From Echinicola rosea (GTDB lineage Bacteria; Bacteroidota; Bacteroidia; Cytophagales; Cyclobacteriaceae): 64,000 nt of DNA. Location of the stretch: the NCBI RefSeq assembly GCF_005281475.1, contig NZ_CP040106.1, positions 191,501 through 255,500 of the forward strand, given 5' to 3'. Shown in pieces: positions 18,551-48,146 of this stretch. Numbering within the stretch: position 1 is the first letter of the stretch; each line of letters opens with the position of its first letter. A program made the position numbers and the translations under genes. The notes below the pieces were generated by a model, which worked only from the letters and a program-made list of their open reading frames with translations, ran no database searches and had not been told where the DNA came from.

Positions 18551-18554
18551 CAAG

Positions 18555-18946
18555 GTGCAAGCTGACTTGTCGCTCCGACCCTAGTGGTCGGTGAGGAAAG
18601 TCCGGGCAACATAGAGCGCCATACTTCCTAACGGGAAGGGGGACTGCTGGAGACAGCAGGGCTACAGACAGTGCCACAGAAAACAAACCGCTCCGTCCTT
18701 TATGGATGGAGTAAGGGTGAAAAGGTGAGGTAAGAGCTCACCGGGCAGCGGGTGACCGATGTCGCATGGCAAACCTTATGGGTTGAAAGATCAAATAGGC
18801 TCCGGTCCAAGGGCTGCTCGTCCAATTCCCGCCTCGGCGGGAAAACCGGAGTGGGTAGATCGATAGATCCTGGTCGCGAGGCCAGGGCCAGATAAATGAC
18901 AAGTACCCGCCACGGCGGGGACAGAACCCGGCTTATAGGCTTGCAC
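18555..18946 (+). ncRNA. rnpB: RNase P RNA (M1, class A)
   Basis: The ends pair as P1: GTGCAAGC at 18555-18562 with GCTTGCAC at 18939-18946. The universally conserved core is present: GAGGAAAGTCCGGGC near 18593-18607 and ACAGAACCCGGCTTATAGGC near the 3' end, with GGTAAGAGCTCACC and a GCATGGCAAACC segment between them. The length of about 392 bases fits a class A RNase P RNA. It is the catalytic subunit that removes 5' leaders from pre-tRNAs. The response regulator gene begins 28 bases downstream, with no terminator visible between them. Confidence 0.96.
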
Positions 18947-18974
18947 ATTTATCATTTAACATTAACAACTACTT

Positions 18975-42436: not shown

Positions 42437-42574
42437 TAAAAAACTTTAGGGAACCTGCAAATTACCTGAGCAAAAGCTCACATGAAAAGGTCACTTTTTC
42501 CTTCGCCGGTATGATCCGTTTCAGGTTCGAAGGGTATCATCTCAGCCCCATCACAGGGACACCCCTAAAGTTTG
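42437..42574 (-). promoter_or_regulatory. TPP riboswitch and expression platform controlling thiM-thiE-thiD-tenA
   Basis: On the minus strand the conserved thi-box elements appear in order: AGGGGTGTCC, GGGGCTGAGATGATACCC (pyrimidine-binding arm), TTCGAACCTGAAACGGATC, ATACCGGCGAAGGAA. The aptamer spans about 42492-42574, with P1 from ACTTT and AAAGT. Between aptamer and thiM there is a hairpin TGAGC-TTTT-GCTCA (42467-42480), and CCCTAAAGTTT (42441-42451) is perfectly complementary to the 5' strand AAACTTTAGGG (42563-42573), which also forms P1 and the start of P2. No terminator with a U-tract is seen, so translational control is more likely. Confidence 0.95.
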
Positions 42575-42679
42575 TCATAGGTTGAAATTACGATTTTAAT
42601 CCCATGAAGCAAAGTTAGCAGCACGAAGTTTTACCCCATCCAGAGGCAATTCCAAAACGTGCCCACATACAAAACTCAA

Positions 42680-46378: not shown

Positions 46379-47029
46379 AAGACACATGGTTTTGCTTATG
46401 ACAAATATAGGAAATAGTGGGGATTATTCTTAAATCAGCTATATACAATAAAAGATTGCGTACTGGAAGTTTAACAGGTTTGAAAATTATAAGTTGAAAG
46501 ATACGAAGATCCCGTTATAATACGGATAAGTATAAGAGCCGGTGCGACCTTTGTCTAGTATGCTTTGGTCTCAGCCCAGGATCATCCCCTAGCTATCAAT
46601 CCCCAAAAACCATTAAAAATTGAAATCCACACCTATAACCTCAGTTCGATTATAAAACCGTCACTGTGAGGCTTAGCGGTAGGCCTGAGCGGGTGGAAGC
46701 CGTGGCAGTCTCAGTATTTCGGGATTGCCACACCCTTTTCCAACCCACATCTTCCTAAATAGGGTTCGCTATGACGCTTTTTATACTAAAATTAAGTCGA
46801 GCGCAGGTCTATAGTTTAAAAAATTTCAAAGCACACACTACTTTGGTCGCTAGTGGGCAGTGGGACCTGCCCTTCTTCAAACGCCTTCCATTGAAGATTC
46901 TTTCAACCCGCTTTATCAAAGTCGTTTAGTTAGTGTGTATCTGGAAATATTGGTTTAATTACTTTTCTTGTTAAATTCCAAGATGGTTTTCATCTCTTTA
47001 CCTTTGCTACTTTTTTGCTTCAAGTCAAA
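46379..47029. other. Gene-free, repeat-bearing spacer right of the group II intron's 3' end
   Basis: No coding frame. It contains the REP-like element at 46664-46773 and the 3' half of the palindromic repeat split by the intron (GCTACTTTTTTGCTTCAAGT, about 47007-47026). Confidence 0.6.
46664..46773. repeat. REP-like intergenic repeat
   Basis: GTCACTGTGAGG at one end and GTTCGCTATGACG at the other are imperfect inverted copies; inside, GCCGTGGCAGTCTC pairs with GGGATTGCCACAC. This is the widespread GTCATTGCGAGG..GAAGCAATCTC..GATTGCCAC type of bacterial repeat. Confidence 0.65.
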
Positions 47030-47622
47030 GTCGAGTAGGCCTGGGCCCTATGCCCAAGCCTCTCTCAGAACCGTACGTGACAGTCTCCCGTCATACGGCT
47101 CTTGACAATCAAATCTGATGTTCCAGATTTTGTTTCAAACAACTCCATCTTCCCTAATTTTAGGTTGTGTAACCATTTAAAACTGATTGCCTCAGTCCCT
47201 TCGCTCTTTCTCCGTTTCCAGAGCTTTCAACACTACTACGGACTGATCCGCCCCATCCCTATTAAAGGGGATGGTTCTCCTGTTCCATCTAACCGCCTGC
47301 TTCGAACTCCTGCCGCCTTAATGCCGCCTGCCAATAGGCCAACTCTCAGTCTGCGCTGCCTATTTTGTCCCGGAAGTCACTCTAGCCCCCGGTTTTGACA
47401 GGAAGTATTTTTCACGACACTTCATCGAACGGTTCACTTTCGTTCAGCTTTTCGAAACACATTCCTTCTGATCGCTCAGTACCACAGCCTTGAAAGCGCA
47501 GCACCATCAGGGGAATTTGACTGGTCTGCCTGATCCAGTCCCAGCCGTCGTGCCAAGGGTTGTAACGCCCTATTCGACATCAGTTGGATAGCATGTCCGG
47601 TTTCCCGAACTTCAGGACACAC
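47030..47622 (-). mobile_element. Group II intron without a reverse transcriptase ORF
   Basis: All hallmarks are on the minus strand. The 5' end reads GTGTGTCC (GUGYG consensus), with GGGAAACCGGAC just after. Domain V is complete at 47068-47101: GAGCCGTA/TACGGTTC, inner stem TGACGG/CTGTCA, GAGA tetraloop, CG bulge and AGC triad. Domain VI follows with the bulged A in CCTACTC and the 3' end GAC. EBS1 (AAAGTGA) sits in the loop of hairpin GAACG/CGTTC (47427-47445) and is perfectly complementary to the last seven bases of the 5' exon, TCACTTT. Domain IV is a short stem (GGCAATCA/TGATTGTC) with no ORF. Length 593 bases. Splicing would need maturase in trans. Confidence 0.88.
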
Positions 47623-48146
47623 AAAGTGACCAAAAAACCCCGCAGCTGTGCATCTATCGGCCTAAAATTAAAACCTTCGCTCATGCAGGCAAACTCCTCC
47701 TTTTCTAGCTGCCAATATTCTTTTTGGCTAGTATTTCGTCAAACAAGCCTGCCTTCTTGCCTACCCGCTTTTTAATTTCTTTACGCCCAATACCTGCAAG
47801 TCGGATCCATTTTATACAGGTTTAAAAAGACCATGGACTAAAACCATGATTTTCTCAATGGACGATCCGTATTGGAAAATCTCTTTAACTATACGACATT
47901 GCTCGCTTTATGCATTTGGAATCGTTATGGCCTGTCCCGATAGCTATGGGGAAGAACTGAAACTACAAGGAAATCAAGCTGTTTGGAGATTGAATCATAG
48001 CATCGCTATAGTGAGATCGAAAACAGCAGCAAAGCGACTGATTTTGAAGTAGTGTCAGGTAGCAATAGATAGGCTAGTGATTAATGCGGGTTCAAATAAA
48101 GATAAAAAACATCCAAGCTACAATACCCTTTATACCTCCTCAAAAT
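47623..48146. other. Gene-free region upstream (5' exon side) of the intron
   Basis: It holds the 5' half of the split palindrome (AAAGTGACC, 47623-47631), a 38-codon protein-like fragment on the minus strand, and about 200 bases of sequence to the eno terminator with no clear feature. Plus-strand open frames here have no protein character I trust. Confidence 0.5.
47705..47821 (-). pseudogene. Fragment of an unidentified reading frame (C-terminal tail)
   Basis: A minus-strand frame between stop codons encodes 38 residues that look protein-like: KWIRLAGIGRKEIKKRVGKK, then AGLFDEILAKKNIGS and a stop. No start codon or upstream extension exists in frame. It may be the remnant of a gene broken by repeat insertion, but family and origin are unknown. 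Confidence 0.3.

Follow-up and report, generated by a model that had tools for sequence, protein, structure and literature searches.

Group II introns that carry no reverse transcriptase (RT) gene and are driven in trans, as well as group II introns that use a repeated element as homing site, have been described before; the literature drawn on here comprises parts of PMC2882425, PMC8914252, PMC5894124, PMC8919778, PMC4424553, PMC3552965, and PMC1525189. In Thermosynechococcus elongatus, 17 ORF-less TeI3 copies go back to one deletion of the ORF in domain IV, which left remnants; they are found at EBS-matched sites, with the enzyme provided in trans, and three of them lie inside an insertion element (PMC2882425). 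RmInt1 of Sinorhizobium meliloti, an intron of class D / IIB3, prefers the lagging-strand template, both experimentally and among its natural insertions (PMC8914252, PMC5894124). For class D and ORF-less introns of many genomes, a moderate enrichment "on the lagging strand" has been reported, where the naming of the strands may differ from that used here (PMC8919778). Among the titles and abstract openings that the searches listed, in which few subscription papers are covered, none was found to deal with the colonisation of a MITE-like repeat by an ORF-less group II intron.

The window, which is the whole analyzed stretch of 64,000 nucleotides from the bacterium Echinicola rosea, contains such an intron (Table 1). 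While the strand choice of the RmInt1 type and ORF-less introns driven in trans are known as such, here 17 apparently young copies are present in one genome, in which a close RT-bearing partner was not found. This set of copies quite probably represents a group II intron retroelement that became non-autonomous through loss of its RT gene and would spread by retrohoming, using an RT/maturase supplied in trans and inserting into the lagging-strand template.

Table 1. Features of the intron and its target (positions in the window) and the candidate driver RT (position in the contig).
Feature	Position	Strand	Basis
MITE-like element around the intron, inverted repeats of the AATGCCGTTTAGTTA family	46918..47900		repeat consensus, inverted-repeat pairing
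3' exon TTTGACTTGAAGCAAAAAAG..., other half of the palindromic target	46997..47029	minus	read directly; 17-copy comparison
ORF-less group II intron, 593 nt	47030..47622	minus	RF00029 match, 17 genomic copies, consensus fold
Domain VI	47033..47064	minus	bulged branch-point A at 47036
Domain V	47068..47101	minus	RF00029; identical in 17/17 copies and the Fulvivirga relative
Domain IV, without RT gene	47104..47191	minus	consensus fold, columns 443-531
Remnant ribosome-binding site AGGGAAGATG and first codons (MELFETKS) of the putative lost RT gene	47125..47155	minus	sequence; IEP N-termini; fold
Domain III	47192..47246	minus	consensus fold, columns 388-442
Domain II	47250..47277	minus	consensus fold, columns 357-384
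Candidate EBS1 AGAGTGAC, intron positions 240-247	47376..47383	minus	complementary to own exon, one G-T pair
Motif GAACGAAAGTGAAC enclosing AAAGTGA	47432..47445	minus	scan of loci for the motif
Predicted IBS1, 5' exon target GTCACTTT	47623..47630	minus	junction same in 17/17 copies; pairs with EBS1 at 47376-47383
Candidate driver RT (L026), 426 aa	5834621-5835901	minus	host intron matches RF01999, 78 bits

An earlier note on this DNA, made from the sequence alone, had described a single compact intron on the minus strand, and most of its description is borne out. The proposed boundaries recur in 16 further full copies, and both ends, GTGTG...CGAC, are the same in 17/17 copies, as expected of a group II intron (GUGYG ... 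AY). In the Rfam covariance check that the note had called for, domains V and VI matched RF00029 with 64.4 bits (E 2.4e-10 for the whole window), well above the gathering score of 40, which agrees with the noted domain V with its GAGA loop and AGC triad; the noted bulged A of domain VI was located 7 nt from the 3' end. Folding, likewise called for, gave a z-score of -6.0 for all 593 nt, with 0/100 dinucleotide shuffles equally good; the intron is thus far more stable than the shuffles, while its score with the D1-D4 model RF01999 (32.2 bits, E 1.6e-4) lies under the gathering score of 36. RF01999 is taken to represent class D / IIB3 introns. Of the 196 pairs of the consensus fold, 31 are compensated and 22 are broken or gapped in one or more of six sequences; since five of the six are nearly identical, this is in effect one comparison with a related copy from Fulvivirga. 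As far as the sequence can say, the intron would be a compact, intact-looking, ORF-less one in need of a maturase from elsewhere. It is real, but it is not the solitary element of the note and belongs to a family of 17 copies. The repeated element that encloses the intron and the strand bias had likewise escaped the note. As a ribozyme it looks ordinary; what appears unusual is the 17-copy non-autonomous family with its near-saturated, strand-restricted occupation of a repeat. Two other structured RNAs of the window, an RNase P RNA at 18554-18951 (+) and a TPP riboswitch at 42481-42576 (-), are ordinary as well.

All 17 full-length copies (593-595 nt; all 28 candidates scored) lie in the single 6.06-Mb contig and are 97.8-100% identical to the window copy; their alignment has 22 variable columns, none of them in domain V. 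From this identity and the invariant domain V it follows that mobility was recent. Domain V matches number at least 21 genome-wide (150 of 338 first-look candidates scored). Four of them do not belong to the family; those at 5184029 (+) and 5834558 (-) are located in RT-bearing introns, and no RT was found adjoining those at 4506596 (+) and 338385 (-). The latter is part of a second, different ORF-less group II intron (L028, 338385-338828, minus), in which domains I and V are about 250 nt apart; a 5' piece nearly identical to it is found elsewhere (L031).

The insertion point of all 17 copies is GTYACTTT|TTTG in the middle of a palindrome, with one copy at GCCACTTT, and the orientation of the intron relative to the surrounding repeat is the same in 17/17. 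This repeat has the traits of a MITE, namely terminal inverted repeats, shortness, and high copy number. At no more than one mismatch per end, 62 inverted-repeat pairs of the element, the window copy included, were found within 2.12 Mb of the genome; 49 of them are intron-free (297-1113 nt) and 13 contain the intron (983-1499 nt), while four of the 17 filled copies are not bracketed by such a pair. The pattern of the palindrome core gave 127 uninterrupted matches at up to three mismatches, 100 of which are considered here, including all 98 with zero to two. Exact empty sites amount to 64, compared with 17 filled sites, not all of which are exact to the pattern. At least one palindrome match (L086) is a bare hairpin that does not lie in the element. 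At another locus (L030, 4303194-4303225), an intron-free element has at its insertion site a near-perfect palindrome that includes the 3'-terminal 32 nt of the intron (97% identical), possibly representing an aborted, truncated insertion. At L088 (1268592-1268624), the palindrome has its short loop inverted with respect to the enclosing element, and the sites at 3371119 and 3701676 share the TGTTACTTT-type start with it, which suggests that inverted loops arise by recombination or cruciform inversion.

The exon-binding sequence is the point on which the earlier note very probably erred. It had proposed AAAGTGA, which pairs with all of the last seven exon bases, as EBS1, but this heptamer is part of a motif, GAACGARAGTGAAC, that is common to other introns of the type. 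In a scan of 20 loci including the window, at up to two mismatches, the motif was found in the window and in L223, L122, L026, L028, L031, L092, L103, and L116; a further match in L225, downstream of its RT, is probably due to chance, so that 9/19 non-window loci are positive if it is counted. Ten loci are devoid of the motif, several probably because the analyzed stretch stops short of domain I; L221, L222, and L224 should reach domain I and still do not have it, hence the motif is not universal. Pairing of the motif with the exon at 7/7 positions is unique to the window copy, with only 2-5/7 in the eight other loci (candidate 5' exons). The likelier EBS1 is AGAGTRAC, which lies 62 nt downstream of the motif, varies with a base of the target, and occupies the loop of a hairpin (approximately 47370-47392), two pairs of which are compensated in the Fulvivirga copy. 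When 7/7 pairing with the 5' exon was demanded (G-T allowed, at least five Watson-Crick pairs, 15-150 nt after the start of the motif), candidates emerged in five introns, always 62-66 nt beyond the motif, namely AGAGTGA with one G-T pair in the window copy, AACGAAA in the Fulvivirga copy, ATATGTG in L026, CTAAGCG in L223, where a second, weaker candidate is present elsewhere, and GTCGAGT in L103. Since the 7/7 match was a condition of the search, independent evidence comes only from the constant offset. The same search, with the 5' ends that were tried, yielded no candidate in the motif-bearing loci L028, L031, L116, and L122. The RT-bearing intron L103 (G271:C21) has as 5' exon TACTCGAC, which is the 3' end of several introns of the type and is matched by its EBS1; it may insert directly behind other introns.

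Within the family, EBS1 follows the target. Three copies have G at intron base 245, and their targets are all of the C type; the other fourteen have A, of which twelve have T-type targets and two, L008 and L011, C-type targets, against the tracking (Fisher 0.015 for 17 copies counted without regard to kinship). The +1 base is T in 17/17 copies.

Regarding domain IV, the earlier note was right that an RT ORF is absent, and wrong in that it saw no trace of one. A ribosome-binding site, an AUG, and about eight codons remain within a domain IVa-like stem. The encoded MELFETKS is comparable to the starts of the intron-encoded proteins (IEPs) of L026 (MIDYYETKE) and L116 (MNLWNETKS), while other IEPs compared start differently. 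The Fulvivirga copy retains AGGGAAGATG and TTGTTT but has TAA as second codon, and the remnant is therefore likely kept as RNA.

Among 295 genomes of the family, 48 including that of E. rosea gave matches at E <=1e-3 (best two candidates per genome). Of the matches listed, near full-length ones are confined to E. rosea and a Fulvivirga MAG (G284), and those of other genomes are short and mostly restricted to domain V. A 26-base pattern of the intron, compared with contigs of 84,980 species from which E. rosea records were possibly left out, occurred in two contigs, one of the Fulvivirga MAG and one of an uncultured bacterium (L122), where, by eye, the match is followed by RT-like sequence. The Fulvivirga MAG has one full copy, with 445/587 aligned bases identical to the window intron, and several partial copies at contig ends or diverging inside. 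In 4/4 readable cases, the 5' exon has TTTTCTTTTGTTTCGTT at its end and lies in similar repeat sequence, and in 3/3 cases the 3' exon begins with TTCTTT. To judge from these exons and its EBS1 candidate, the EBS1 of the Fulvivirga relative is re-specified, and the relative uses another repeat than the E. rosea family.

Three group II RTs are encoded in the E. rosea genome, all with RVT_1 and GIIM domains and none with an endonuclease domain in Pfam; the RT of 568 amino acids has an HNH-like tail by eye. The intron of this RT (L025, 6709-10705) is located between two pieces that resemble, by eye, one IS66-type transposase gene. The earlier note had suggested searching the genome for an intron that carries an RT and has the same domains V and VI, and this search turned out negative, since none of the three RTs resides in a close relative of the ribozyme. 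The driver enzyme would most likely be the RT at 5.835 Mb, which is favored because its ribozyme and its protein are the nearest of the three, the latter to rhizobial RmInt1-like RTs. Its intron shares blocks of D1, D3, and D5 with the ORF-less intron, and both match RF01999, the ORF-less one under the gathering score; 262/447 aligned bases are identical in D1-D3 (59%) and 57/74 in D5-D6 (77%). The other two RT introns belong to D1-D4 types 6 and 7. With five plasmid IEPs (Rhizobium, Mycetohabitans, Enterobacter, Bradyrhizobium, Peribacillus), chosen among its own best matches, the protein shares 46-48% identity; for the other two RTs the values are 32-37% and 30-32%. The missing endonuclease domain does not single out this RT, because none of the three has one in Pfam. 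Its active site reads YSDD, in place of the YADD found in 10/10 relatives with a readable motif, and the enzyme may therefore be impaired; L122 yielded no RT frame in this comparison.

This leaves some room for the possibility, which is the less probable one, that the RT at 5.835 Mb is not acting and that the copies were driven by one of the other two RTs or by another that has been lost or lies outside the assembly. The divergence and the YSDD motif of the favored RT would fit with it, as would the failure to find in the genome an RT-bearing intron with a closely related ribozyme, and the finding of a full-length ORF-less copy in 0/10 other genomes of the genus (best two candidates per genome scored). 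It has to be weighed against the recent mobility that follows from the near-identical copies and their invariant domain V, against the blocks and the RF01999 match that the favored ribozyme has in common with the ORF-less intron, and against the assignment of the other two RT introns to different D1-D4 models.

The proposed insertion into the lagging-strand template is based on the direction of replication, which was deduced from GC skew and from gene and tRNA direction. In 42 samples, skew values are negative or close to zero in the first 1.1 Mb and negative again from 3.92 Mb onwards; between 1.15 and 3.86 Mb they are positive, apart from 3.1 Mb, which places the flips near 1.1-1.15 and 3.9 Mb. 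The leading strand is G-rich, and we infer from the skew pattern that the origin is near 1.1-1.2 Mb. As a search for 16S found no match in the genome, tRNAs and ribosomal-protein genes served as fork check; the latter, recognised by eye in the window, are on the minus strand and co-directional with the inferred fork, as are 24/39 tRNAs. The position of dnaA (1241), away from any skew flip, is neutral or speaks against this origin, and nine proteins inspected around 1.24 Mb were members of ordinary families, with no origin-like genes among them.

With boundaries at 1.24 and 3.7 Mb, 15/17 filled sites are co-directional with the inferred fork, compared with 4/64 exact empty sites, the other 60 of which are head-on (Fisher 5.8e-11). 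The bias persists with boundaries at 1.10/3.90 Mb (p 2.2e-10), with the origin at 0.80 Mb (p 1.6e-6), and against all 98 empty sites with zero to two mismatches (p 1.6e-9), 13 of which are co-directional, including L088, where the element of the other orientation has an inverted loop. Without the bare hairpin L086, the favored class consists of 15 filled and three empty sites and the disfavored one of two filled and 60 empty sites, the 60 not having been checked one by one as lying in elements; the occupancy of favored exact sites is about 15/18. Exceptions are two filled copies of the disfavored orientation and three intact favored sites within elements that are empty. If the inferred origin is correct, the sense strand of the intron would lie in the lagging-strand template, which is the signature of retrohoming of the RmInt1 type. 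At the 60 head-on exact sites, the opposite strand also reads GTYACTTT|T on the favored template, so that the palindrome creates decoys; they are used by 0/17 introns, and the upstream part of the exon must therefore play a role, through IBS2 or protein contacts.

Two other sources of the orientation were considered. Element subfamilies are rejected, as intron-free long and short elements are head-on in 26/32 and 33/38 cases, respectively, one of the empty long co-directional entries being the 5' half of a filled site; filled elements are co-directional in 8/8 long and 7/9 short cases (boundaries 1.18 and 3.8 Mb). Flanking-gene direction is not supported as a source either, since the strand of the upstream gene is shared by 12/17 filled and 37/67 empty sites (p 0.28; one of the 67 again the 5' half of a filled site). 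In the congener G245, in which the ORF-less intron was not found and the search gave a short domain V match only, the element is oriented by chromosome half in 40/40 of its best copies (40 of 195 candidates scored). The element itself is therefore strongly oriented, and the intron occupies a minority class, which is commoner in the E. rosea genome than among the best 40 copies of G245.

It is rather improbable that insertion is not strand-selective and that head-on introns were inserted equally often and then lost by selection or deletion. The strand data reveal a pattern and not a process, and transcribing a structured RNA against the fork could carry a cost; however, dozens of head-on sites would need to have reverted exactly to the empty state, occupancy does not follow the direction of neighboring genes, and selective insertion is the measured behavior of RmInt1 (PMC8914252, in the part drawn on).

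The history of the intron was compared with that of the element. Filled elements diverge from each other by 16.4% on average and the introns inside them by 1.0%; for 30 sampled empty elements the value is 13.5%, an underestimate because the sample was picked for similarity to the query. The distances among the 17 introns show no correlation with those among their elements (Mantel r -0.04, p 0.57). In the sample, the element closest to a filled one is empty in 9/17 and filled in 8/17 cases, and both short and long forms of the element carry the intron. From divergent elements, near-identical introns, and uncorrelated distances it is concluded that the intron most likely entered pre-existing elements singly and recently. 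The opposite scenario, in which a DNA transposase duplicated an intron-containing element and the intron was a passive passenger, could appeal to the transposon-like inverted ends, to the identical place of all 17 copies in the same element, and to the eight filled elements that are nearest to another filled one. It is nevertheless very unlikely; such co-transposition is disfavored by the divergence of the filled elements, which are as diverse as the similarity-picked empty ones, and by the uncorrelated distances, as well as by the nine filled elements nearest to an empty one and by the presence of the intron in both element forms, and it would give the orientation bias of the element itself, while the filled ones face the opposite way. 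That the intron is a solitary relic capable of splicing only, as the earlier note could be taken to mean from the absence of an RT in each copy, is refuted by the copy number of 17, and neither the youth of the copies, nor their single target, nor an EBS1 that tracks it leaves this reading any appreciable likelihood.

Returning to the non-autonomous retroelement, its cycle would start with the intron RNA splicing out, with a predicted ligated-exon junction ...GTCACTTTTTTGAC..., and forming a complex with the RT/maturase supplied in trans. The complex would recognise GTYACTTT|T and upstream exon sequence in the older, MITE-like repeat by RNA-DNA pairing and would reverse splice into the strand exposed as lagging-strand template. 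Eventually, a DNA copy would be made from a nascent replication primer, without an endonuclease cut. A bolder and more doubtful extension, which we put forward only tentatively, is that the family would be a counterpart of SINEs, whose RT was permanently lost before two genera of the bacterial family diverged or exchanged the lineage and which would parasitise distant RTs of relaxed specificity, with EBS1 re-specified to the abundant palindromic repeat of the host and about 80% of the reachable sites filled. Irrespective of this, about 80 exact or filled targets (64 empty, 17 filled) in both orientations constitute a natural experiment on the strand choice of retrohoming, in which the palindromic target supplies built-in decoys, and the range of RNA specificity of an RT becomes directly testable with named parts.

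Summarizing, the E. rosea family combines traits of several known systems, as far as these are covered in the parts of the papers drawn on. With TeI3 of T. elongatus it shares the number of ORF-less copies, the remnants of a domain IV ORF, the EBS-matched sites, the location inside an inserted element (three of the TeI3 copies), and the presumed supply of the enzyme in trans. T. elongatus differs in having RT-bearing relatives of the same lineage in the genome and in that the enzyme shown to act has an endonuclease domain, and its copies form families with different targets (PMC2882425), whereas all E. rosea copies use one repeat, a close RT-bearing relative was not found in the genome, and the strand bias is near absolute. 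As with RmInt1, a repeat serves as homing site, which is an insertion sequence in S. meliloti, and the RmInt1 enzyme is devoid of an endonuclease, as is the E. rosea candidate RT in Pfam (PMC8914252, PMC5894124). RmInt1 encodes its own RT, as class D introns do, whereas the E. rosea intron is without an RT gene, with the endonuclease-less (Pfam) RT in a separate intron, and has occupied about 15 of 18 favored exact sites. RmInt2, also of S. meliloti, targets inverted repeats of insertion sequences, one of which is always on the lagging template (PMC5894124); in the E. rosea palindrome, by contrast, an IBS1 match is available on both strands, and one strand is used in 17/17 cases. Short extragenic palindromic repeats are also visited by group II introns of Pseudomonas putida, where 2/9 copies are at REP sequences (PMC1525189), compared with 17/17 copies at one position of the repeat in E. 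rosea.
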